From the NCBI GenBank assembly GCA_020724775.1, contig DYGG01000001.1, positions 1-64,000 of the forward strand: 64,000 nt of DNA. The letters are read 5' to 3'. Each line of letters opens with the position of its first letter. Within the stretch, counting starts at the first letter, position 1. Positions 41,997 to 54,710 of this stretch are shown here, piece after piece. This DNA is from Ignavibacterium sp. Its GTDB lineage: Bacteria; Zixibacteria; MSB-5A5; GN15; PGXB01. The translations under genes were made by a program, and so were the position numbers. A model generated the notes under the pieces. That model had not been told where the DNA came from. It did not search any database and worked only from the letters and a program-made list of their open reading frames with translations.

Positions 41997-43205
41997 CTAC
42001 GCCAACTGCTCCCATTTCAGAATTTCCACTGCAGCCCGGCCATCAATCGCAGGTCCGGAAACTTCCTTGACAATTAATCCGTCTGAATCCATGAGCGCTG
42101 AGAGGGCGCCGGAAGAGGTTTTCTGAGAAAAGGCAGCAATTAAACCATTTCCGTTAGAGTGAAATTTGCCGGGCCAAATTAACGTTCGGTCGTGAGGACG
42201 ATCGCTGGCGGGGTCCAGCACGGCGGGGTGCAGACCGGGAATAAAATCAGATTCGCCGGAGAGTTTCCTTAGAGCCGGGATAACAAAGAATGCGGCTGTC
42301 ACGGCCGCCGAAAGCGGATTCCCCGGCAATCCGAATAGCAGTCTTCTTCCTTTAACTGCGAAGAATATCGGTTTGCCCGGCTTAATCGTCACTTTATGAA
42401 AAATCTTCCGCCAGCCGATCTTCTCAGCCGCCGGCACAAGAAGATCCTTATCACCAGCCGAGACTGCCCCGGTGGTAATGATGACATCACTATCGCACTC
42501 CAGAGCGCGGCAGAATCCCTCGAGACTGTCAGTGATGGTCGGCAGAATTCCGAGTGACTCGCAATGATGTTCCACCAGTGCCGAGATTGTGTATCGATTG
42601 GAATTATAAATCTTCCCGGGCAAAAGTCTATAACCCGGCTCAACCAGTTCATCACCGGTGGTGATAAGGGAAAGAGCAGGTTTCCGGAAAACGGCGACCT
42701 CTTTCAGTCCAAGGCCGGCAAGAATGCCTATATCCAAAGGTCTAAAGCGACAGCCGGCACGAAAGACTGTATCACCCTCCCTGATATCCTCACCGGCATC
42801 CCTGATGTTGGAGCCTTGCCTGACAGGTCTGGTGAAGGTGACAGTGGAGCCGTCGGTAAAAGTTTCTTCCACCATGACAACTGCATCAAATCCGTCAGGA
42901 ACATGCCCTCCGGTCATGATTTTCACCGCGTGTTTCCCTCCTGATATCGATGAGGCATCATCACCGGCGTATATGACAGCCTCAATCGGCAGAGTAACAG
43001 GATTGGATTCTGTTGCCGAAGCCAGGTCGGAATGTCTCACGGCATAACCATCCATCGCCGAATTGCGGTAAGGAAAGACATTAATGCCGGCGATGATTTC
43101 TTCCGCTGCAATCCGCCCGATGGCTTTATCAATTGACACATTCTTGCTCCCAAGGATGTCACAGTTTTCAAATATCAACTTCTGAGCCGTCTTATAGTCA
43201 ATCAT
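41997..43205 (-). CDS. moeA: Molybdopterin molybdenumtransferase MoeA
   Basis: This 402-residue enzyme inserts molybdate into adenylylated molybdopterin. Recognisable parts are the N-terminal AIGRIAAEEIIAGINVFPYRNSAMDGYA, then VKIMTGGHVPDGFDAVVMVEE, the MoCF domain DVIITTGAVSAGDKD, and GLPGNPLSAAVTAAFFV. It is the last gene of the cofactor operon and overlaps mogA by 8 bases. Its substrate is made by the MogA/MoaB protein encoded directly upstream. Confidence 0.95.
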   Translation of the reverse strand: MIDYKTAQKLIFENCDILGSKNVSIDKAIGRIAAEEIIAGINVFPYRNSAMDGYAVRHSDLASATESNPVTLPIEAVIYAGDDASSISGGKHAVKIMTGGHVPDGFDAVVMVEETFTDGSTVTFTRPVRQGSNIRDAGEDIREGDTVFRAGCRFRPLDIGILAGLGLKEVAVFRKPALSLITTGDELVEPGYRLLPGKIYNSNRYTISALVEHHCESLGILPTITDSLEGFCRALECDSDVIITTGAVSAGDKDLLVPAAEKIGWRKIFHKVTIKPGKPIFFAVKGRRLLFGLPGNPLSAAVTAAFFVIPALRKLSGESDFIPGLHPAVLDPASDRPHDRTLIWPGKFHSNGNGLIAAFSQKTSSGALSALMDSDGLIVKEVSGPAIDGRAAVEILKWEQLA

Positions 43206-43716
43206 GTCGCGCTCCTTCCGGATGGCATTCTTTGATTTCCCCTTTCAGGAGTCGCAGCGGATGCTCCAACGTGGGGAGAAGAAACTCAAGTATCTGCTGC
43301 ACCGCGTCAGGTGAACCGGGGAGATTTATAATCAAGGTTCGTCCCCGGATACCGGACACAGCGCGGGAGTATATCGCATATGGCGATTTTTTTTGACTGT
43401 AACTTCTAATTGCTTCATCAAGTCCGGGGGTAAGTCTTTCCACGAAGAGCCGAGTCACCTCGGGCGTATTATCGCGAGGGGAGAAGCCGGTTCCGCCGCT
43501 GGTGAAGATGATGTCGAGATTCTCCGCCTGTAAAGCGTATAAGGCGCGCTCAATTTCTCCGGGGTCATCGCTCACAATAGATTTTCTTTCAAGAATGAAA
43601 TCAGTATCTTCGAGCACTGTTGCAAAGATTGGAAGTGTCCGGTCGGGACGAGTGCCTTCCGCGGCGCGGTCGGAGATTATGATAACGCCGGTGCGCAGCC
43701 TGTTCAATGTTTCCAT
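43198..43716 (-). CDS. mogA: Molybdopterin adenylyltransferase (MogA/MoaB family)
   Basis: This 172-residue single MoCF-domain protein carries the signature LDIIFTSGGTGFSPRDNTPEVT and GVIIISDRAAEGTRPD. It adenylylates molybdopterin before MoeA acts. It overlaps moeA downstream and the MOSC gene upstream (13 bases), so all three are coupled. MogA and MoaB cannot be separated with certainty by motif; its place next to moeA and the lack of another copy here favour the adenylyltransferase role. Confidence 0.85.
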   Translation of the reverse strand: METLNRLRTGVIIISDRAAEGTRPDRTLPIFATVLEDTDFILERKSIVSDDPGEIERALYALQAENLDIIFTSGGTGFSPRDNTPEVTRLFVERLTPGLDEAIRSYSQKKSPYAIYSRAVSGIRGRTLIINLPGSPDAVQQILEFLLPTLEHPLRLLKGEIKECHPEGARHD

Positions 43717-44144
43717 AGTATAATATCTCCTTCCCGGACCGTACCACCCTTAACTACCCGCGCAAAGATTCCTTCGCGCGGCATAATACAGTCGCCCACC
43801 ATTGTACGGATATAGCAGCCGTGATGACATCTTTTCCCGATTTGTGTTATTTCCAGTTCAACTTGTTTGCCGACAATCAGTCTCTTACCTGGGGCTACCT
43901 GCGAAAAATCCAGACCAAGAGTAGTGAAATTCTCAGCAAACTCGCCGGGGGAGACGGCGAGTCCTTTCATTTCCACTTTAGCGAAAGATTCCAACGGCAG
44001 GAGTGACACCTGACGGTGCGAACCGGCATGGGCATCCCCGATAATTCCAAAATCCTGACGCAGTTCAGCCCGAGGGACATTCCATTTCTTGTCCCCTTTC
44101 TTATCCGATATGGAGATTTTGAAAATCCGGCTTAATGAAGTCAC
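43704..44144 (-). CDS. Stand-alone MOSC-domain protein
   Basis: This gene is best started at GTG 44144, where AGGAGG lies about 8 bases upstream. An earlier start would run through moaC in another frame. The 146-residue protein is a MOSC domain: FGIIGDAHAGSHRQVSLL, PGEFAENFTTLGLDF, GKRLIVGKQVELEITQIGK, and the cysteine motif GKRCHHGCYI near residues 97-106. MOSC domains handle sulfur or the molybdenum cofactor, as in the C terminus of sulfurases. Position between moaC and mogA suggests a role in cofactor delivery or modification; the exact reaction is unknown. Confidence 0.8.
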   Translation of the reverse strand: MTSLSRIFKISISDKKGDKKWNVPRAELRQDFGIIGDAHAGSHRQVSLLPLESFAKVEMKGLAVSPGEFAENFTTLGLDFSQVAPGKRLIVGKQVELEITQIGKRCHHGCYIRTMVGDCIMPREGIFARVVKGGTVREGDIILWKH

Positions 44145-44601
44145 CTGATTTTCCTCCTTTCTTCTCCAGCAGTTGCAGATTGGCAATAACGATATCCTTC
44201 TGGATTGCCTTGAGCATATCATAAACCGTGAGCGCCGCCACCGCAGACGACGTGAGCGCTTCCATTTCGACTCCGGTACGGGCAACAGTTTTTACTCGCG
44301 AGATGATGAGAATTCTACATCGTTCCGCTTCAAGAGTGAACTCAACGGCGCAATGGTCGAGAGAAATCTGATGGCAGAGCGGAATCAGCTCCCAGGTTCG
44401 CTTCGCGGCTTGAATACCGGCCAGGCGCGCCGCCGCAAGAACGTCACCTTTGGCTGCCGAGTTATTCAGTACAGCCTGAAAAGCCGCTTCATTCAGATAA
44501 ACTTCAACCGAGGCCGTCGCCCGTCGTACAGTTTCTGATTTTTCACTTACGTCAACCATGGCGGCATTGCCGTGGCGGTCGATATGGCTTGATTTTCTCA
44601 T
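44101..44601 (-). CDS. moaC: Cyclic pyranopterin monophosphate synthase accessory protein MoaC
   Basis: This 166-residue protein completes cyclic pyranopterin formation from the MoaA product. Conserved runs are GNAAMVDVSEKSETVRRATA (N terminus), AGIQAAKRTWELIPLCHQI, and VEMEALTSSAVAALTVYDMLKAI. The start lies 1 base after the moaA stop. The C-terminal tail overlaps the MOSC gene in another frame (44101-44144). Confidence 0.95.
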   Translation of the reverse strand: MRKSSHIDRHGNAAMVDVSEKSETVRRATASVEVYLNEAAFQAVLNNSAAKGDVLAAARLAGIQAAKRTWELIPLCHQISLDHCAVEFTLEAERCRILIISRVKTVARTGVEMEALTSSAVAALTVYDMLKAIQKDIVIANLQLLEKKGGKSGDFIKPDFQNLHIG

Positions 44602-44602
44602 T

Positions 44603-45547
44603 TCAACCTCCCGTTACCATGAACGATGGAAGATATTTGTCGCCTTTCGGCAGATAAGAGCAGCCGGTGTTGGTGCGAAGAGATATCAGCCGTTCCAATT
44701 GGCTTGAAACATTTTCCGGCGACCGGTCGAGCATTTCGAAAAGATTTATGCATTCGCCTGAAAAGAGACAGCCATACAGATTGCCATTGGCGGTGAGACG
44801 AATCCGGTTGCATTCCAGACAGAACGGACTGCTGACCGGGGCAATCAGCCCGACACGAATCGACAGGCGACCGGAGATATAGTACCTGGCGGCGCTGTGC
44901 GGGTCGCTGTTCAAGGGACTGAGGGGATAAGAAATACGCGATAATATTTCGGCGCCGGCGAGATAACCACGGGTCTGTCCGTGACTGTTACGGGTTGGCA
45001 TATATTCGATGAATCTGATGTCAACGCCCATCCTATTGGCGAATTCGACCATGCTGCCTATTTCATCATCATTGACACCTTTTAACACCACACAATTCAG
45101 TTTGACTTTCGGAACCGTTACGACGGCCTTTTCTATGCCTTTAAGAACATGGTTGAGGCTGTCAGATGCGGTTATTTGATGGAAGCGAGCGGCATCAAGG
45201 GTGTCGAGGCTGATATTGATGCTGTCGAGTCCGGCTTTGCCCAGATCTGGCGCCAGATGGGAGAGAAGTCGTCCGTTGGTTGTGACAGCGGTATGGAAGC
45301 TCGCATCAAGGCTTTTGGCGTATGAGATCAAATCGGTCAGCCCTCGGTAGAGAGTCGGCTCTCCGCCGGTAAAGCGGATTTTACGGATGCCGAGACCATG
45401 GAGGAAAGAAATTGCGGTCTTGAATTTCTCCGGTTTCGTCTGCACCACCTCGGATTGTTTTTTCAATTGCGGCGGACGACAATAGAAGCAACTGAAATTA
45501 CATTCATTTATAAGCGAAATCCGCAAGTATTCGGCTTTATTTGGCAT
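44603..45547 (-). CDS. moaA: GTP 3',8-cyclase MoaA
   Basis: This radical SAM enzyme starts molybdopterin synthesis from GTP. I take ATG 45547, supported by GAGGAG upstream, giving 314 residues; longer frames run into mobB. The SAM cluster motif C-x3-C-x2-C is at Cys16, Cys20 and Cys23 (CNFSCFYC). The second cluster ligands are in FCLECNRIR and LYGCLF near the C terminus. The protein ends in the conserved Gly-Gly pair. It overlaps mobB by 11 bases. Confidence 0.94.
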   Translation of the reverse strand: MPNKAEYLRISLINECNFSCFYCRPPQLKKQSEVVQTKPEKFKTAISFLHGLGIRKIRFTGGEPTLYRGLTDLISYAKSLDASFHTAVTTNGRLLSHLAPDLGKAGLDSINISLDTLDAARFHQITASDSLNHVLKGIEKAVVTVPKVKLNCVVLKGVNDDEIGSMVEFANRMGVDIRFIEYMPTRNSHGQTRGYLAGAEILSRISYPLSPLNSDPHSAARYYISGRLSIRVGLIAPVSSPFCLECNRIRLTANGNLYGCLFSGECINLFEMLDRSPENVSSQLERLISLRTNTGCSYLPKGDKYLPSFMVTGG

Positions 45548-46055
45548 AAGCACTCCTCTCACTTCGGGATTTGCCTGATTCTTTAATGATGAAATCGGCC
45601 AGCGCGTCAATCTGAGCGGTGACGAAGTGCGGAGTGTCCTCGCGGAATTGACTGTCACCGTATGATGCAATAATATTGTCCGGAATTTTGCCTTTGTTAT
45701 TTTGTAGGTTTCGGGTCAGCAGTATCTTGGGGCGGCGGTTTCCTTTATCCCCCTCAACCAGGAAGATATCACAGAATTCGGAAAGAGTTTCGCGCAGTCG
45801 AACAATAAGATTCTCGTCAGCGCCGGCAAATAAGGCTGTCTCCGCCTCGCTTATCGCTATGGTCGCGACCGAGCCGGCACGACGATGACGTAAGGTGTCT
45901 TTCCCCTCGGAGTCAAAGCGGTGCGCATGTCCGGTATGTTTTATGGTCGCAATTTTAATTCCCCGCGCCGCCAGCGCCGGAATCAGGGACTCCAACAACG
46001 TGGTCTTGCCGGAATTCTTCGCCCCCACAATGCCTATCTCATACATGTCGTTCAT
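45537..46055 (-). CDS. mobB: Molybdopterin-guanine dinucleotide biosynthesis protein MobB
   Basis: This 172-residue P-loop GTPase has Walker A GAKNSGKTTL (about residues 11-20), followed by IATIKHTGHAHRFDSEGKDT, a family hallmark, and VEGDKGNRRPKI. It assists MobA in adding GMP to the cofactor, the form needed by NarG. It overlaps mobA by 4 bases. Confidence 0.92.
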   Translation of the reverse strand: MNDMYEIGIVGAKNSGKTTLLESLIPALAARGIKIATIKHTGHAHRFDSEGKDTLRHRRAGSVATIAISEAETALFAGADENLIVRLRETLSEFCDIFLVEGDKGNRRPKILLTRNLQNNKGKIPDNIIASYGDSQFREDTPHFVTAQIDALADFIIKESGKSRSERSAYAK

Positions 46056-46600
46056 ATCACTAAATCCTGTGGAGTATTTATATTTCGCCAGACATTCTTC
46101 TTAACCGGGAGAAGGCGGTAATTGAGTGTCATTATGATTTCAAAGATACGATAGTCGGGTTTCTTCGATTCTTTCAAAAGTCGGTCAATCAGGGCGGTAG
46201 AGTAGATTCCACATAAGGGCTGAATCTTTTCCGTCTCTTTCAATCCGAGAAATTCTTCGCCTTCATACTGATGTACCAAATCAGATATCATCTCGCTATC
46301 AAGGTCGGGCAGGTCGGCCGCTGTTATGAAACAGGCGCTTTCGCGACAGTCGCGGAGCGCCGTCAGTATCCCGGCAAGTGGACCGGCAACGCCGGGATAA
46401 TCGAGAAGCACCGGAATTTCGAACTTGCGAAATCTGTTGTCATCTCTCGCCACCAGTTTAGTCAGGCGGAAACTCTCCTGGCAAGTGTATATGACTCGCT
46501 CCAGTAGAGTGGAACCGTCCAGAGAAAGAAACAGTTTGTCCTGCCCCATTCTCCGGCTCCGACCGCCGGCCAGTATGTATGCGGATTCGATTTTCACCAT
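46052..46600 (-). CDS. mobA: Molybdenum cofactor guanylyltransferase MobA
   Basis: This protein transfers GMP to molybdopterin. The nucleotide-binding motif LAGGRSRRMGQDK lies at residues about 10-22 and the metal site in ITAADLPDLD. The start is uncertain. ATG 46600 gives the normal N terminus but has no ribosome-binding site and follows a terminator hairpin. An in-frame TTG at 46642 has AAAGGAG at 46658-46652 and would add 14 residues encoded by the terminator itself. It is the first gene of the cofactor operon and lies directly after a structured leader. Confidence 0.88.
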   Translation of the reverse strand: MVKIESAYILAGGRSRRMGQDKLFLSLDGSTLLERVIYTCQESFRLTKLVARDDNRFRKFEIPVLLDYPGVAGPLAGILTALRDCRESACFITAADLPDLDSEMISDLVHQYEGEEFLGLKETEKIQPLCGIYSTALIDRLLKESKKPDYRIFEIIMTLNYRLLPVKKNVWRNINTPQDLVI

Positions 46601-46603
46601 AAC

Positions 46604-46632
46604 AAAAAATCCACAACCGGACGGCCGTGGAT
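46604..46632 (-). terminator. Intrinsic terminator in the leader of the cofactor operon
   Basis: On the minus strand ATCCACGGCC (46632-46623) pairs with GGTTGTGGAT (46618-46609) across the loop GTCC, giving ten pairs of which two are G-T, followed by a six-T run that begins at the base of the stem (46609-46604). It ends 3 bases before the mobA ATG. An overlapping alternative hairpin, GTGG(46640-46637)/CCAC(46630-46627), would prevent it. This is the arrangement of a transcription attenuator. Confidence 0.65.
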
Positions 46633-46659
46633 GATGCCACAATTTTATTCGCTCCTTTG

Positions 46660-46734
46660 CCAATCCGGGCAGGCCGGGGAATTGCTCCCCCGACCGTAGA
46701 GTCCCTGCCGACCCGGCGGGTCAACAGGATTCGG
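46660..46734 (-). ncRNA. Structured leader RNA of the cofactor operon (candidate Moco-type riboswitch)
   Basis: The minus strand folds into a closed junction. The outer stem CCGAATCC (46734-46727) pairs with GGATTGG (46666-46660) with one bulged G. Inside are the hairpin GACCC-GCC-GGGTC (46722-46710) and the stem GGCAGG (46709-46704)/CCTGCC (46673-46668), which encloses GGGGGA-GCAA-TTCCCC (46691-46676), a GNRA tetraloop hairpin. A TATATA-like -10 lies just upstream at 46743-46738. It is followed by an intrinsic terminator and then mobA. Position, compact fold and GNRA loop fit the Moco RNA family; I could not test the consensus. A repeat element or the tail of the nar transcript is the alternative. 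Confidence 0.5.
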
Positions 46735-46794
46735 AGGTTATATAATTCAGATGCGTCTAATGCTCTTGAGTTATCCTTTCCTCATGTTTCCTGT

Positions 46795-48294
46795 CTAAGT
46801 CGCCGATTTCGGCGCGACAACAAAGTCATCTTTCCGGGATTCTCTCACTCGAACCGCGGAGGAACTCTTCCAGAGGAGGCAGACTGCCGCCAGCGCGGCG
46901 AAAAACATCCAGCAGGTTGTCCAGATTCCGGTATATTCCAGAAGGTACCCGAATAGAATGGGGCTGAAAAATCCGCCCAGGCCGCCTATCACGCCGACCA
47001 ATCCACCGACCACGCCGACATGATTGGGAAAAGTTTCCGGAATATGCTTATAGACCGCTCCCATCCCCATCCCCATCAGAAACCCCACCAGGAATAGCAA
47101 GCCGGTGAATATCCAGATATTGGCTTGAAAATGAATATGGGTGATGCCACGAGCAATAACCTGGCGTTTCGCCACCGAATCGCCCACTCTTACGACCGGC
47201 TCCTGCCAGGAGGTGATGGTTGGCAGAATTAAGACATCGTTGTGTTCAACCTCCCTCAGGCTTATTTCTCTGGCGCTGGTGCGCAAAGGATAGAATGCCC
47301 CATCAATCTTGATTTCGTTACCGGTCACGGCAGTAACCAAACCGCTCCTTGTTGACATGACTCCCATTCCGGGTGACTCGATATCCATTTTGGGAACTAT
47401 CAGCATGGCGCAGAAAACCAGACATCCCACAAGAACGGCTTTCATTACACGGTTGGCGCCCCAGCGGTCGGAGAGATATCCGCCGATGGCGCGGACTCCG
47501 CCGGAGGGAAGACTGAATACGGAAGCCATAAATCCGGCTGACGCCACAGAGAGAGAATAGACATTCAAATAATAAGGAATGAGCCACTGTGAAAGAGCGA
47601 CAAAGCCGCCGAAAACGAGGAAATAGTACAACCCGAATCTCCAGACCCGGATATCCCGGAGAGGCTCAAGACGGGTGCGTAGTGACGTCACCCCGGTCAG
47701 GGTCGGCTTCCGATTGGTCGTTACGGCAATGAAAATTATTGAAGTCACAAGAAGCGCCCCGGCGTAGTAACGCGGGAGGAACCGCCAGCCTTCGATATTA
47801 TCCCCATGACTTGTGAGGTGAACAAGAAGAGAGGGAACGATGAGGCTGGTCAGAGCGGCCCCGATGGTTCCCATCCCAAAAATCCCGAGCGCCGTTCCCT
47901 GGCGTTCTTTCCGAAACCAGAGGGAGGTGTACGCCACTCCGACCGCGAAAGAGGCGCCGGTAAATCCGAATCCCAGACTGGCCAGGGCAAACTCGAAATA
48001 ACTGTCCGCATAACTGAGTAGAAATAGGGGAACGGCCGAAAAGAGCATCAATAGACCGAATATCGGTCGTCCGCCATATTTATCCGCCAGAATCCCCATC
48101 GGCAGACGCATGACCGAACCGGTCAGAACCGGGAGACCGATAAGCCATCCTATTTCAGCCCGATTCCAGGTGTAAACGCCGCTGTCAATCAGAAAAGTTA
48201 CCAGCGAGCCATTGAGCATCCAGGCTGAAAAGCAGATACTGAACGCGACAGTATTCGCTATTAGAATCGTTGTTGCCTTATTCGACTGTTCCAC
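46795..48294 (-). CDS. narK: Nitrate/nitrite transporter NarK with an inserted soluble domain
   Basis: This 499-residue MFS protein belongs to the nitrate-nitrite porter family. Family motifs are MRLPMGILADKYGGR near residue 62, GFTGASFAVGVAY (about 110) and VGVVGGLVGVIGGLGGFFSP (near 428). It brings nitrate to the cytoplasmic NarG site or exports nitrite. Residues about 302-392 form a hydrophilic, beta-rich insert between two helices, with VRVGDSVAKRQVIARGITHIHF, a run resembling a lipoyl or barrel fold. This is longer than in E. coli NarK. GTG is the start, 6 bases after narI. Confidence 0.88.
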   Translation of the reverse strand: MEQSNKATTILIANTVAFSICFSAWMLNGSLVTFLIDSGVYTWNRAEIGWLIGLPVLTGSVMRLPMGILADKYGGRPIFGLLMLFSAVPLFLLSYADSYFEFALASLGFGFTGASFAVGVAYTSLWFRKERQGTALGIFGMGTIGAALTSLIVPSLLVHLTSHGDNIEGWRFLPRYYAGALLVTSIIFIAVTTNRKPTLTGVTSLRTRLEPLRDIRVWRFGLYYFLVFGGFVALSQWLIPYYLNVYSLSVASAGFMASVFSLPSGGVRAIGGYLSDRWGANRVMKAVLVGCLVFCAMLIVPKMDIESPGMGVMSTRSGLVTAVTGNEIKIDGAFYPLRTSAREISLREVEHNDVLILPTITSWQEPVVRVGDSVAKRQVIARGITHIHFQANIWIFTGLLFLVGFLMGMGMGAVYKHIPETFPNHVGVVGGLVGVIGGLGGFFSPILFGYLLEYTGIWTTCWMFFAALAAVCLLWKSSSAVRVRESRKDDFVVAPKSAT

Positions 48295-48300
48295 TTTTCT

Positions 48301-49020
48301 TTACCCATTATCTGATATGAATGCCTTCAATGCGCTTCTGGGATTGCGGTACCATCGGACCACCTGCGTCCGCCGCCAGAGGTAAGGATTGGGGACGACC
48401 AGCAGATGAACCAGTCTTCCAAAGGGAAAAACCGCCAGTATCAGGAACGCATTAACGATATGGAGTTTCACCATGAAAGGGAGACCGCTCAAGTAACTCA
48501 AATCGGGATTCAATTTGAAGATTGACCAGAGATACGGAGTAATGACTGAAGAGAACCATGAAGAGCCCCAGCGATAGAAAACCGCAATATAGACTCCAGC
48601 AATTATCTGAATTAATAAGAGTGCATAAAGTACCCAGTCGGCAGGGGTGGTGACGCGAAGCAGTTTGTGGTCGCCAAGCCGGCGGAAGATAAGTTGCATC
48701 AGTCCTATCAGAGTCAAAAGCCCGAAAATAAGGGCAGTGATTTCCAGAACATAGAGTCTCCAGGCGACTCCATTCCAGGCAAGAACATGGCTCGGTACCA
48801 CGAATGCCGCCAGATGCCCGAAAAAGAGAAAAATGATGCCATAATGAAACGGAATAATGCCCCAGAACTGACGTCGATTCTCCAGGAACTGGGAGGAGAG
48901 ACTCGAATAGGTGAAAGGGCGCGACAGATACCTTTGAATCGATACAAAAACGAAAACGAAGAACGCCAGGTAAGGAAAGATGGCAAACAGGAATATATTA
49001 AGCGCGCTCTGTCCGGTCAT
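48301..49020 (-). CDS. narI: Respiratory nitrate reductase gamma subunit, cytochrome b
   Basis: This 239-residue membrane protein has five hydrophobic segments. The heme-b ligand histidines are visible in FGHLAAFVVPSHVLAW (about residues 68-82) and in KLHIVNAFLILAVFPFGRLVHLL (about 185-207). It passes quinol electrons to NarH. It overlaps narJ by 4 bases (ATGA), so it is translationally coupled. Confidence 0.93.
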   Translation of the reverse strand: MTGQSALNIFLFAIFPYLAFFVFVFVSIQRYLSRPFTYSSLSSQFLENRRQFWGIIPFHYGIIFLFFGHLAAFVVPSHVLAWNGVAWRLYVLEITALIFGLLTLIGLMQLIFRRLGDHKLLRVTTPADWVLYALLLIQIIAGVYIAVFYRWGSSWFSSVITPYLWSIFKLNPDLSYLSGLPFMVKLHIVNAFLILAVFPFGRLVHLLVVPNPYLWRRTQVVRWYRNPRSALKAFISDNG

Positions 49021-49550
49021 GATTCCGTCCTCCTTTCACTGTCAAACTCTCGTGCCAGTTCTGCGTCGAGGAACTGTAAGAGTGAGAAATAAGGATTTGA
49101 CCGTTCCTTGAATCCATCAATCATCTTTTTTAGAGCCGGTCGGATGTACTTCTCCGCCAGTTCTCTCCCCGACTCGGTTTCAATCCTATCCAGCGCTGAG
49201 AGCATATAAGTCAGATGGTCGGGCAGTTCCGTCTCTTCGGGAATACCGTGCTCGCGAAGCAACTGACGCATCTTCACCAGAAATGCCCCTCGCTTGTAAT
49301 CCTCCCCGAAAAGTTGCCATCCAATCTCCAGAGTGCAGACCGGATTCAAATCAAAAGTCCGGGTATAGAGTTCTTCCCGTTCTTCCGCTTTCATGGCTGC
49401 GATTCTTCTCCGAAAAGAATCAAATGACTCTTTATCAGACGTACTGTCCATAATCTCCGCGGCATCGTCAAGAGCGGTTTCGAATTCAGCATCGGGATAT
49501 TTGAAGAGCGCTGCCAGCGCTTCATACCTGCCTGTCAACCGTTCGTTCAC
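49017..49550 (-). CDS. narJ: Nitrate reductase assembly chaperone NarJ
   Basis: This 177-residue chaperone (TorD/NarJ family) helps insert the molybdenum cofactor into NarG. LPDHLTYMLSALDRIETESGRELAEKYIRPAL is the core, in which PDHL is the family motif, and YTRTFDLNPVCTLEIGWQLFGEDYKRG precedes it. The start is GTG at 49550, overlapping the narH stop by 4 bases, with AGGAGG upstream. It sits between narH and narI, the standard order. Confidence 0.9.
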   Translation of the reverse strand: MNERLTGRYEALAALFKYPDAEFETALDDAAEIMDSTSDKESFDSFRRRIAAMKAEEREELYTRTFDLNPVCTLEIGWQLFGEDYKRGAFLVKMRQLLREHGIPEETELPDHLTYMLSALDRIETESGRELAEKYIRPALKKMIDGFKERSNPYFSLLQFLDAELAREFDSERRTES

Positions 49551-51037
49551 AAACCCCTCCTCGGTTTGTCAATGAACCCGAATCCAGCGGCTTGTTTTTG
49601 CTCCATCGGGTCGCGAAACGCCTCAATCGCTTCCTCACGGTGCATCGGAGGGATAACAAAACGGTCTTCGAATGAGCAGAGCGATGTAAGAGCATAAATT
49701 GCCTCAGCCTCGGCAATGCTGCAGTCGGCTTCGCGAAGCATCCTCTCTGCGGCCTCCATGGATACGTCGCCGACCGTCACCGCTCTCCTGTACCAGCGGA
49801 CCGCCTTTTGTTTCCGCAGGGCATAGGCGACCTTTTCGGTTTTTCCGGCGCCCAGAAGATTCGCCAGGTATTTCAGAGGCACGCGCGCCTGCTCGATATC
49901 GTGAAAGAGGTCCCCGCTTACCGCATTGACCACCCCATTCTCCCTGGCGGACATCACCGGCGCCATCGGCGGGACATAGAAAAGCATCGGCATCGTCCGA
50001 AACTCAATATGTGGCGGCAAGGCCAGTTTCCAATCTTTCACAAACTTATAGACCGGCGATTTCTGCGCCGACTCTATCACCGATTCATGAATATTATTTT
50101 TCCGCGCCTGGGCAATGACTTCCGGATCGTGTGGGTCGAGAATCATTTCCCGCTGTCCGTCGATGAGCATTTCCGGCGGAAGTTTTGCCATCTCGTCGAT
50201 ACGCTCGGCGTCATACAATATTACTCCAAGGTACCGGATTCGTCCTACACAGGAATGGAAGCAGGCCGGCGCCTGCCCTGTTTCCAGACGGGGGAAACAG
50301 AGGATGCACTTCTCCGATTTACCGGTAAACCAGTTGTAATAGACTTTCTTGTAGGGGCAGGCGGAAATGCATGTCCGCCAACCGCGACATCTTTTCTGGT
50401 CAACCAGAACGATACCGTCCTCGCCTCGTTTGTACAGCGCCCCCGAGGGGCAGGAGGCAACACAGGCGGGATTGAGGCAGTGATTGCATATCCGGGGTAA
50501 ATAGAACAAAACCAGACGCTCCACTGCGAACAGTTGCTGTTTCTGGTCAGGTGTGAGCCCCTCCAGATTCGGGTCATTTTCTGCATATACCGGCGAACCA
50601 CCCAGGTCGTCATCCCAATTCGGGCCGGCCTCGATGTCGATGTAATCACCGGTGACCATTGAAATCGGTTTGGCGGTCGGCTGGTCGTCGCCTTCGGGGG
50701 CATTGAAGAGATTCTGATAATCGTAAGTCCAGGGCTCGTAGTAGTCATCCATGGTCGGAAGATGCGGATTGTGGAAAATATTCGGGACAATCCGCGCTTT
50801 GCCGGTTGCATTCAGTCTCAATTTACCTTTCTTGTTTTCCCACCCTCCGCTGTATTTTTTTTGGTCCTCCCATGAGGTCGGATAGCCGGTGCCCGGCTTG
50901 GTCTCGACATTGTTCCACCACATGTAGTCCGTTCCTTTACGGTCGGTCCAGATATTCTTGCAGGCGATACTGCAGGTATGACAACCGATGCATTTGTCGA
51001 GATGGAAAACCATCGAAATCTGTGAGCGAACATTCAT
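49547..51037 (-). CDS. narH: Respiratory nitrate reductase beta subunit
   Basis: This 496-residue electron-transfer subunit has four cysteine groups. They begin CIGCHTCSIACKNIW (about 17-31), then CNHCLNPACVASCP, CRGWRTCISACPYKKVYYNW and CILCFPRLETGQAPACFHSC. The Trp in the CRGW group replaces a cysteine as in other NarH proteins, giving a [3Fe-4S] cluster; the other three are [4Fe-4S]. It links NarI heme to NarG. Confidence 0.96.
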   Translation of the reverse strand: MNVRSQISMVFHLDKCIGCHTCSIACKNIWTDRKGTDYMWWNNVETKPGTGYPTSWEDQKKYSGGWENKKGKLRLNATGKARIVPNIFHNPHLPTMDDYYEPWTYDYQNLFNAPEGDDQPTAKPISMVTGDYIDIEAGPNWDDDLGGSPVYAENDPNLEGLTPDQKQQLFAVERLVLFYLPRICNHCLNPACVASCPSGALYKRGEDGIVLVDQKRCRGWRTCISACPYKKVYYNWFTGKSEKCILCFPRLETGQAPACFHSCVGRIRYLGVILYDAERIDEMAKLPPEMLIDGQREMILDPHDPEVIAQARKNNIHESVIESAQKSPVYKFVKDWKLALPPHIEFRTMPMLFYVPPMAPVMSARENGVVNAVSGDLFHDIEQARVPLKYLANLLGAGKTEKVAYALRKQKAVRWYRRAVTVGDVSMEAAERMLREADCSIAEAEAIYALTSLCSFEDRFVIPPMHREEAIEAFRDPMEQKQAAGFGFIDKPRRGL

Positions 51038-51056
51038 GGCTTTGGCTCCTTGTCGA

Positions 51057-54000
51057 TTACCATATCAATTCCGGAAGTTTGCGCACGAGTATATGCGTAT
51101 CGCGGTTGCATCCCACCGGTCCCCAGTAGTTGAGGTGAAACGTAAACTGTCCGTATCCGCCCGCCATCAGGTTTGGTTTGAGCCGGGTGCGGGTGAGGCT
51201 GTTGTGGCCTCCGGCGCGCCGTTTTCCCCGGAGCGGCGATTTCGGAACAGAGTAGGTTCGCTCCGGCGAATGATACTGGATACAGATTCCGCGCGGGATA
51301 CGCGCGCTGACCGCGGCGCGGGTCACCACTACGCCGTTATCGTTATGCACCTCCACCCAATCGTTATCGAAAATATCCATCTCCCGGGCGTCTTCGTCAT
51401 TCATCCAGAGCGGCTCCACCCCTCGTGAGAGCGTGGTCATTCTCTGATTGTCGCCATAGGTCGAATGGATATGCCACTTTCCGTGCGGGGTGAGATAATT
51501 TAGCATTTTGGCGGCATAACTTTTCTCGCTGAAACGCAGGTCGGCATATTCGGTCGGAAGCGGTTTCGGCTTATAGGTGGGAAGATGCTCTCCGAATTGC
51601 AGGTACATCTGATGGTCCAGATAGAGATGCTGCCTTCCAGTAAGTGTCCGCCAGGGAACAAGTTTTTCAACATTATAAGTGAAGGGGGAATAGGGACGGC
51701 CCTCCTCGGTCAATCCCGACCACATCGGACTGTTAATCAGCCGCTGCGGCTGTGACTGCAGGTCCTTGTAACTGCAGCGGACCGACCGCGATTTCTCCGC
51801 CAAATCGGCCAGTGGCAAGCCAACCTTTTCTTCCATGTTCTTATATGAACGATACGCCAGTTCGCCATTGGTAACCGTGGCGAAGTTCAGGATGACATTA
51901 CAGACATCGGCATCATTTTTGAGGGAGATATATTTTTGCCCGTCCCACTCCTCGGTGGGAAGCACCGACAGCCCCTGGTCGTAAAAGTCGGCAATTTCAT
52001 ATCGGGTGCCATGCGCCCCAAGGCCGTTTTTGCGAGGAAGAGGACCATATGATATGAACTGCTTATAGAGGTTTCTGTAGTCTCTCTCCACCACGCGGAT
52101 TTTCGGCATCGATTTCCCCGGAATCGGCTCGATTTCTCCTTTCTTCCAGTCCTTCATCTCCGGCTGTGAGATTTCATCAATGCTGTCATGAGCAAGCGGG
52201 GCGGTCACAACATCTTTGACCGGAGCGGGGAAATGATTTTCCGCAAGTTCGGAGAATTTGCGCGCGATTGCCTGAAATATCTGCCAGTCGGTTTTCGATT
52301 CCCAGCAGGGAGGAACAGCGGCCGACAACGGATGAATAAAGGAATGCATGTCGGTTGAGTTCAGGTCGGCCTTTTCGTACCAGGTCGCGGCCGGCAGGAT
52401 GATGTCGGAATACAGGGCGGAGGTATCCATCCGGAAATTCAGGTCAACCACCAAATCGAGTTTTCCCTGGGGGGCTTCCTTATGCCAGACAACCTCCTGC
52501 ACCGAGTCGCCGGCGATTTCTTCGGCAATGGAGTTGTGATGGGTCCCGAGATAATGCTTCAAAAAATATTCGTGACCCTTGGAACTGGCCATCAGGGCGT
52601 TACCGCGCCAGATAAACCAGACTCGCGGCCAATTCTCCGGCGCATCGGGGTCTTCTACGGCAAATTTCAGTTTTCCCGACTTGAGTTGATTGACGATATA
52701 TTCGACAATCTTTTCCGGGGTGTCGGCGCCGGCCGCCTCGGCTTCCTTTACCAGTTCAAGATTGCTGCGGTTGAATTGCGGATAAAATGGCAACCACCCC
52801 GATCGCACCGCGCGCGCCTGAATATCGATGGTATGCCCGTGAGCCAGGGTTCCGGGCGGCTGGTTCGCAGGGACAGTGTGGTAGTCGGTGAATTCTTTCT
52901 CATACCGCCACTGGTCGGTATTAACATAGTGCCAACTGGGGGCGTTTTGCATTCGCGTTGATGGATACCAGTCGGTTGCCTGAGCAATACTGCTCCAGGA
53001 TTCCATCGGCGCCAGTTTCTCCTGTCCCACATAATGCGCCAGACCACCACCATTTACGCCGACACACCCGCAGAAAATCAGGGCGTTGATTCCGGCGCGG
53101 TAAATCAGATTGCCATGATACCAGTGATTGATTCCGGCTCCGATTATTATGGTGCATTTGCCCTTTGTCAGTTCTGCCGTGGAACCCCATTCGCGCGCAA
53201 AGCGGACCACCATATCGCGGCTCATGCCGGTATATTTTTCCGACCATGCCGGTGTGAACGGAGCGTCATCATTGTAATCTGTCGGATAATCGCCGGTTAA
53301 CCCGCGCGGGACACCATACTGAGCCATGATAATATCATAGACCGTTGTCACGACCACGGTGCGGCCATCGACTGTTTTCAGTTCTCTAACGGGAACGCCC
53401 CGATAGTGCACTTTCCCCCGTGAAAAATCATCCAGTTGAATGAGCGCTTCCCTGTCGGCGCTGCCGAGGAAAGTAAGAATCGGCTCGATTTCGCTGTTAT
53501 CGAGGGCGTCGTTGAGACGAAGATTCCATTTCCCCTTTTCTTTCCCCCAGCGGAATCCGACCGCACCCGGGGGCATTTTAGGCGCGTCCGTTTTCCTATC
53601 CCACATCAGAAATTTCCAGTCACCGTTCTCGATATTGCGATAATTTTCGATACGATTGGCGCGGAGGAGTTGTCCGGGACGATATCTATTCTCACCTGCA
53701 ATTTGATTCAATTCGACCAACAACGGCGAGTCGGTGTATCGTTTGACATAATCAATGAAGTACGGCGTCTGTTTTTCGTGGTGAAACTCTTTCAAGAGTA
53801 CATGATTAACCGCCATCCACCAGGCGCCGTCCTGTCCGGCGTTGAGTGAAACCCACTCATCCGAATACTTCGCCACCTGGTTGAAGTCAGGCGCAAAGAC
53901 CCACATTTTGCTTCCGTTATGACGGGCTTCCGCCGCGAAATGGCAGTCGGGAGTGCGGGTCATATTCAGATTAGAGCCCATCACCGCCAGTAGTTTGGCA

Positions 54001-54710
54001 TTATACCAGTCAGCCGACTCATGAACATCGGTCTGCTCGCCCCAGGTTTCCGGAGAGGCGGGCGGAAGGTCGCAGTACCAGTCGTAAAAAGATAATGATA
54101 CCCCTCCCATCAATTGAAGCATCCTGTATCCGGCGGCAAAAGATATCATCGACATCGCCGGTATCGGCGAGAAACCGACAATCCGGTCAGAACCATATTT
54201 CTTTATCGTATGAATATTAGCGGCGGCGATTATCTCCAAAACGGTATCCCAGTCGCTGCGGCGAAAGCCTCCTTTACCGCGGGCTGTCTGCCATCGCTTT
54301 CGCGAAACCGGGTCGTTCACTAATGCTCCCCAGGCGAGCACCGGGTCGCTCTGGCGACGTCGCGCCTCTTTCCAGAGGTCGAGCAACGCGCCTCTTATAT
54401 AAGGGTATTTTACCCTCAAAGGACTGTAAAGATACCAGGAGAAGGATATCCCGCGCTGACAGCCGCGCGGTTCGTACGGCGGAAGGCTCGATTCCAGAAG
54501 GGGATAATCCAATTGCTGCAACTCCCAGGTGACTATGCCGTCTTTCACATAGATTCCCCAACTGCATCCGCCGGTGCAGTTAACGCCATGAGTACTGCGG
54601 ACGACTTTGTCATGCTGCCAGCGATTACGGTAAAATTCTTCCCATGTCCGCAATTCGGGATTTATCTCATCTTTTATCCAGTCAATTGGTCCCTGCTTGC
54701 TCAATTTCAA
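51057..54710 (-). CDS. narG: Respiratory nitrate reductase alpha subunit
   Basis: This 1217-residue catalytic subunit holds bis-MGD and reduces nitrate to nitrite. The FS0 cluster ligands are His41, Cys45, Cys49 (HGVNCTGGC) and Cys84 (PRGC). The molybdenum-ligating Asp is 214 in [12 protein letters not shown]. There is no twin-arginine signal, so the active site faces the cytoplasm as in E. coli rather than the periplasm. Translation begins at an unusual TTG (54710), overlapping the narC stop, with AAGGAG placed 5 bases upstream. It needs the cofactor made by the adjacent operon. Confidence 0.97.

Follow-up and report, generated by a model that had tools for sequence, protein, structure and literature searches.

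Gene Context and Leader RNA

The window analyzed here is a 64,000-nucleotide stretch of contig DYGG01000001.1. On its minus strand are the nitrate reductase genes narG, narH, narJ, narI, and narK (46795–54710). Downstream, on the same strand, are mobA (46052–46600) and then mobB, moaA, moaC, a MOSC-domain gene, a mogA/moaB-like gene, and moeA (41997–46055), which form the rest of a presumed regulated operon for biosynthesis of the molybdenum cofactor (Moco). The narG and narK genes were named from matches, and narH, narJ, and narI from the order of the open reading frames. NarG was found to score 1257 bits against NarG from E. coli and 1500 bits against TIGR01580. The first regulated gene, mobA, was assigned from NCBIfam MobA matches and from start positions, and its ATG at 46600 directly follows a U-run.

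The gap between the end of narK (46795) and the start codon of mobA is occupied by a leader RNA (46748–46601, minus strand). The minimum free energy of its fold was calculated to be −67.1 kcal/mol (z = −3.26), and none of 200 shuffled sequences was as low. When 601 bases were compared with all of Rfam, the sole meaningful match was RF01055, the Moco/tungsten riboswitch, which aligned over its full length (model positions 1–135) to 46636–46748 with a score of 28.4 bits and an E-value of 1.1e-4. The gathering score of RF01055 is 36 bits, and the leader is therefore missed by a scan at gathering thresholds. All of the scanned related loci of the form described below also scored under 36 bits (25.9–34.4 bits), with significant E-values, and RF01055 alone matched in 8 of the 20 relatives scanned. 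Members of the family precede genes for Moco biosynthesis, for transport, or for enzymes, and so does the leader. It exists as one copy in its genome, where the other RF01055 match is a 26-nucleotide fragment (E = 0.2), and it is therefore not a scattered repeat, a possibility raised by the first-pass annotation of this DNA.

Anatomy of the Aptamer

The aptamer core was assigned to 46652–46736 on the minus strand. It scored 28.4 bits with RF01055 and 106.5 bits with R1, a covariance model built from nine aligned loci with weak RF01055 matches, the window leader included. Both the full-length match and covariation place P1, P2, P4, and P5 of RF01055 around a conserved junction. The aptamer is closed by P1 (CUCC/GGAG, 46736–46733/46655–46652), which is kept or compensated among 27 distinct aptamers. 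P2 and its apical hairpin span 46703–46729 (46729–46718/46714–46703); both sides have changed at 6 of its 10 pairs, and 95.4% of the cells are paired. The place of P3 is taken by the P2–P4 junction ACUCUACGG (46694–46702), which is near-invariant in the alignment of 27 loci, and the P3 columns of RF01055 are deleted in the cmscan alignment of the window aptamer. P4 (46672–46695) has changed on both sides at 6 of 9 pairs and carries a GNRA tetraloop, which is GCAA in the window and GUAA in some relatives. P5 (UGCC-CGGAUU-GGCA, 46658–46671) is a covarying hairpin of four pairs (46671–46668/46661–46658), of which the loop and the 3′ strand serve also as an antiterminator strand. The GAAA tetraloop and its P2 receptor are absent from the window aptamer and from its aligned relatives. 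One relative, before a moaA-like gene (L037, 1501–1640), carries an additional hairpin-like element inserted between P2 and P4, at the place of P3.

Two hairpins that had been read from the window sequence alone were recovered in this fold. The one at 46722–46710 is the apex of P2, and the GNRA hairpin at 46691–46676 is P4 of the family. The outer stem (46734–46727/46666–46660) and the inner stem (46709–46704/46673–46668) of that first fold did not hold up: as alternative pairings, they are incompatible with P1, P2, and P5, which have the support of covariation, and they are not conserved.

Judged from its sequence, the leader is a genuine, conserved, and divergent relative of the Moco riboswitch. 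Of the two possibilities left open at the outset, a divergent form or a new class, the first applies: the leader belongs to a known kind of riboswitch, as a divergent variant here called N-type.

Distribution and Covariation

A search with RF01055 over 60 related genomes returned weak matches before mobA and six strong matches elsewhere. R1 was then scanned over 132 genomes of the phylum (Ca. Zixiibacteriota). Matches were obtained in 28 genomes, of which 26, from seven families, contain the N-type RNA; the matches in the remaining two (G017 and G034) are canonical Moco RNAs, to which R1 reciprocally gives 33–34 bits. The N-type RNA occurs once per genome, except in G117, where a second, degenerate copy (L068, about 3766; G117:C69:46765-46876) precedes another mogA/moaB-like gene. 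Wherever the context was checked, N-type RNAs precede Moco-biosynthesis genes (mobA, moaA, or a mogA-like gene). The RNA follows nar genes on the same strand in the window genome, G016, and G040, and in G021 it is preceded by napA and a napG-like gene.

A core DNA pattern searched over 84,980 species gave 17 genuine loci and one match judged to be due to chance; the pattern is strict, and absence outside the phylum is therefore unproven. The chance match (L049, from Sphingomonas) is surrounded by conjugation-type genes and does not precede Moco genes. Two further candidates (L016 and L018, RF01055 E-values of about 0.02) were set aside since by eye they are unlike homologous leaders, and a blastn search against plasmids gave a single weak, partial match. 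In our literature search, Zixibacteria and riboswitches were not named together in any paper. As far as that search shows, the phylum is new for a Moco-type riboswitch, and so is the sub-threshold subfamily, which has been overlooked by annotation.

Among the 27 distinct aptamers, 94.8% of the paired cells are complementary, compared with 88.2% in shuffled alignments and 31–52% with slid partners. Compensatory change on both sides was found at 15 of 28 pairs, against 7.2 in shuffles, and none of 500 shuffles reached as high a count. The covariation score was 0.258, versus 0.143 for shuffled and 0.04–0.10 for slid partners. These values are to be read with the facts that the alignment was fitted to R1, itself derived from nine of the 27 rows, which favors the structure somewhat, and that kinship among the 27 sequences can also lift them above the shuffles.

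Terminator and Antiterminator

An intrinsic terminator lies at 46601–46632 on the minus strand, with a stem-loop at 46632–46609 and a U-run. The pattern scan found 2 terminators where 0.8 were expected by shuffling, which alone is insufficient. However, a terminator stands at the same place, roughly 13–60 nucleotides past P1, in about 23 of the 27 related loci (three of them read by eye), and because of this recurrence the terminator in the window, noticed earlier in the sequence itself, was accepted. It usually ends right at the start codon of the first gene. For L010 and L011, mobA probably starts directly after the GGAG of P1 and before the terminator, which would thus be inside the reading frame; in these two loci, P1 could therefore also mask the ribosome-binding site.

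The leader might be nothing but a terminator of the nar operon with a folded, unregulated spacer, given that it comes after narK and that a terminator consensus by itself is not clearly rarer than chance. We consider this very improbable, since the aptamer covaries over 27 loci, most of which are not behind nar genes, and since Moco genes lie downstream.

The 5′ strand and loop of the terminator, typically UCCNNNGCCNNCCGG, are complementary to CCGGUUUGGCAAAGGA of the aptamer, at the P5 loop and the 3′ strand. In the window, the upstream strand of the resulting antiterminator is CCGGAUUGGCAAAGGA (46653–46668, minus strand), which is predicted to be paired in the cut transcript and to form a duplex of −18.1 kcal/mol with its own terminator. 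The downstream strand is UCCACGGCCGUCCGG (46617–46631, minus strand), made up of the terminator's 5′ arm together with its loop; the evidence for this strand is a shared motif and the covariation of the loop. The motif CCNNNGCC is found in 18 of 23 terminator arms. The duplexes of aptamers with their own terminators average −17.84, compared with −16.23 (sd 0.35) when the partners are permuted, and none of 20,000 permutations was as low (p < 5e-5). At two variable positions of the terminator loop, 36 of 40 cells pair with the P5 loop, against 28.2 in shuffles. The pairings include CCGAC/GUCGG, CCGGU/ACCGG, CCGGC/GCCGG, CCGGA/UCCGG (the window), and CCGUU/AGCGG; on the nine distinct loop combinations alone, the covariation has a p-value of 0.02. 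The complementarity is partly broken in L010, L011, and L015. A covarying antiterminator of this kind is a further new element, and it offers a concrete model for the coupling of the aptamer to termination.

The loop complementarity could instead reflect a kissing contact in the ligand-bound state, with the switch operating through some other alternative fold, and both covarying positions do sit in hairpin loops. This reading seems unlikely, as the pairing extends outside the loops through GGC/GCC and GG/CC (the motif present in 18 of 23 arms), which would be needless for a kissing contact.

Folding calculations are in line with an antiterminator. In transcripts cut before the 3′ arm of the terminator, the antiterminator and little P1 are predicted for about 20 of 23 loci, and in full transcripts most loci, the window included, shift to P1 plus the terminator. 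The antiterminator is retained in the full-transcript folds of L023, L028, L029, and L034, and partly in those of L025, L026, and L030. Such a shift would be what a ligand-OFF attenuator needs, and the direction is one that we infer. An attenuator is defined by a terminator and an antiterminator that exclude each other, the latter overlapping the aptamer, and this pair is present at the level of sequence and predicted folding.

The first-pass annotation had proposed a Moco-type riboswitch with an attenuator in front of mobA–moeA. That reading is right in substance, as seen in the sub-threshold RF01055 match, the compensatory changes across the phylum, the linkage to Moco genes, and the terminator/antiterminator pair. 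It errs in how the stems are drawn and in its choice of competing hairpin. The letters for the hairpin proposed as competitor (46640–46627) are in the window, but it is absent from the leaders of relatives and from the predicted structures; the conserved competitor is the antiterminator between aptamer and terminator.

Proposed Mechanism

It is probable, in our judgment, that the leader is a cis-acting riboswitch composed of a divergent, P3-less Moco aptamer and a terminator, which turns mobA–moeA off when cofactor is ample and for which the likeliest ligand is Moco or its guanine-dinucleotide form (MGD). The proposal builds on the aptamer, the terminator, the gene order, and the covariation within the aptamer and between the aptamer and the terminator loop, as read from the sequences, and it supposes co-transcription with the nar genes, a ligand, and a direction of switching. 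With little cofactor, the P5 loop and the 3′ strands of P5 and P1 would be held in a duplex with the 5′ arm of the terminator and its loop. With this antiterminator formed, RNA polymerase would read on, and mobA-mobB-moaA-moaC-MOSC-mogA-moeA would be made. With ample cofactor, the bound ligand would lock P1 and P5, and the terminator hairpin would form. Transcription would then stop just before the start codon of mobA, a feedback repression that would be uncoupled from the upstream nitrate reductase genes.

Comparison with Known Moco RNAs

The N-type RNA shares with the Moco RNAs of RF01055 the arrangement P1-P2-P4-P5, the conserved central junction, the AAAGG 3′ strand, the GNRA loop on P4, and the location before Moco genes, and terminator-type expression platforms were reported for that family as well (PMC2408646). 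It differs in having no P3, a GCAA or GUAA loop instead of GAAA, no receptor in P2, the junction ACUCUACGG, a P5 longer by one pair, and scores of 26–34 bits, under the gathering score. A GAAA loop with its receptor in P2 is present, with few exceptions, in the known members of RF01055. The four Moco RNAs with a GCAA loop described by Regulski et al. likewise have no receptor (PMC2408646), and the GCAA loop and the missing receptor of the N-type RNA therefore go together as expected.

The junction, the extra P5 pair, and the GCAA/GUAA loop are near-constant in the N-type RNA and unlike those of canonical Moco RNAs, and the first gene is usually mobA. The same architecture might thus serve another ligand (molybdopterin, MGD only, or molybdate), with divergence of the junction having changed the specificity. 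We give this only a slim chance: the 3′ strand of P1/P5 (AAAGG), the P4–P5 junction, and the gene context match those of Moco RNAs, and nothing positive speaks for another ligand. Moco or MGD is retained as the preferred ligand.

Molybdenum or Tungsten

The Moco-type label is supported for the leader, with the qualification that P3, the stem tied in the literature to Moco versus tungsten sensing, is absent. Moco RNAs that lack P3 have been assigned to the tungsten cofactor by a published correlation, in which tungsten genes were present in 17 of the 19 organisms that had P3-less RNAs (Regulski et al. 2008, PMC2408646). Reviews list a separate class of tungsten-cofactor riboswitches, which traces to this P3 correlation. 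The N-type RNA resembles the P3-less ("Tuco"/WCo) subgroup (PMC2408646) in the absence of P3. It is tied instead to the molybdenum genes narG and napA and not to tungsten enzymes, and it lacks the GAAA loop and receptor.

The window genome (G000) is a metagenome-assembled genome (MAG) that is 95.7% complete. Its PF00384 matches are NarG and NuoG only, and no match to PF02738, PF00174, or AFOR_N was found. NarG is the only Mo/W enzyme detected among the Mo/W folds searched, and no tungsten-cofactor gene was found in a search that covered AFOR_N and these folds. As the genome is a MAG, an undetected tungsten enzyme is possible. NarG and NapA are molybdenum enzymes. Among the 132 genomes of the phylum, narG is above the cutoff in 7 and napA in 5, and all 12 carry the N-type RNA. 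The association spans eight genera and five families, with p = 2.8e-10 overall and p = 9e-4 within the 40 genomes that have moaC (Fisher tests, with shared ancestry ignored). The tungsten aldehyde oxidoreductase domain AFOR_N is present in 11 of the 132 genomes and shows no association with the N-type RNA, which was found in 1 of the 11 (G117). Other N-type genomes have PhsA-like enzymes, which may use either metal. The window genome and almost every other genome of the phylum lack ModA, which is therefore of no help in deciding the metal.

Were the RNA to sense the tungsten cofactor, it would repress the shared molybdopterin pathway when that cofactor accumulates. The absence of P3 and the 17 of 19 organisms of the published correlation speak for this possibility (PMC2408646), which we nevertheless regard as quite unlikely: the RNA is present in every narG and napA genome and in 1 of 11 genomes with AFOR_N, and the window genome has NarG as its one detected Mo/W enzyme and no AFOR_N. 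Moco, or MGD, thus appears to be a likelier ligand than the tungsten cofactor. A P3-less form in a molybdenum context is new. We tentatively suggest, as a reading with nearly as much for it as against it, that the N-type form is an aptamer subclass in its own right, seen to date in Zixiibacteriota alone, and recognizes Moco with no need of P3, which would then not be the discriminator between molybdenum and tungsten. If this is true, the assignment of a tungsten-cofactor riboswitch that rests on P3 needs to be re-examined. As riboswitches, Moco RNAs have a ligand that is not stable enough for standard binding assays. With the N-type form in the window genome and a canonical P3-less form beside formate dehydrogenase in sister genomes, the RNA feature that reads molybdenum or tungsten is directly testable.

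Canonical P3-less RNAs of the Phylum

The canonical RNAs of RF01055 in the same phylum (L003–L008, the six strong matches) belong to the same family as the N-type RNA and likewise have no P3 in the cmscan alignment, with scores of 68–82 bits to RF01055. Unlike the N-type RNA, they have a GAAA loop and a CUA...AUGG-type receptor, and they lie before the genes of a small exported protein and of a TonB receptor. In six genomes of Zixiibacteriota (L061, 2120–5127, and L062–L066), the canonical P3-less RNAs stand before the small exported protein and/or the TonB-dependent receptor, and several adjoin a selenocysteine-containing FdnG-type formate dehydrogenase with mobA-mobB-fdhD. This arrangement recalls the cobalamin riboswitch before btuB and, by analogy, would suggest that molybdenum, tungsten, or the cofactor is taken up through the TonB-dependent receptor. 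A genome-wide check for moaC found none in the six genomes with TonB-linked RNAs (G017, G034, G024, G027, G049, and G050; loci L061–L066). For two of these, G017 and G034, completeness is given as 100%, and both encode Mo/W enzymes. The genomes with TonB-linked RNAs may import the cofactor or a precursor.
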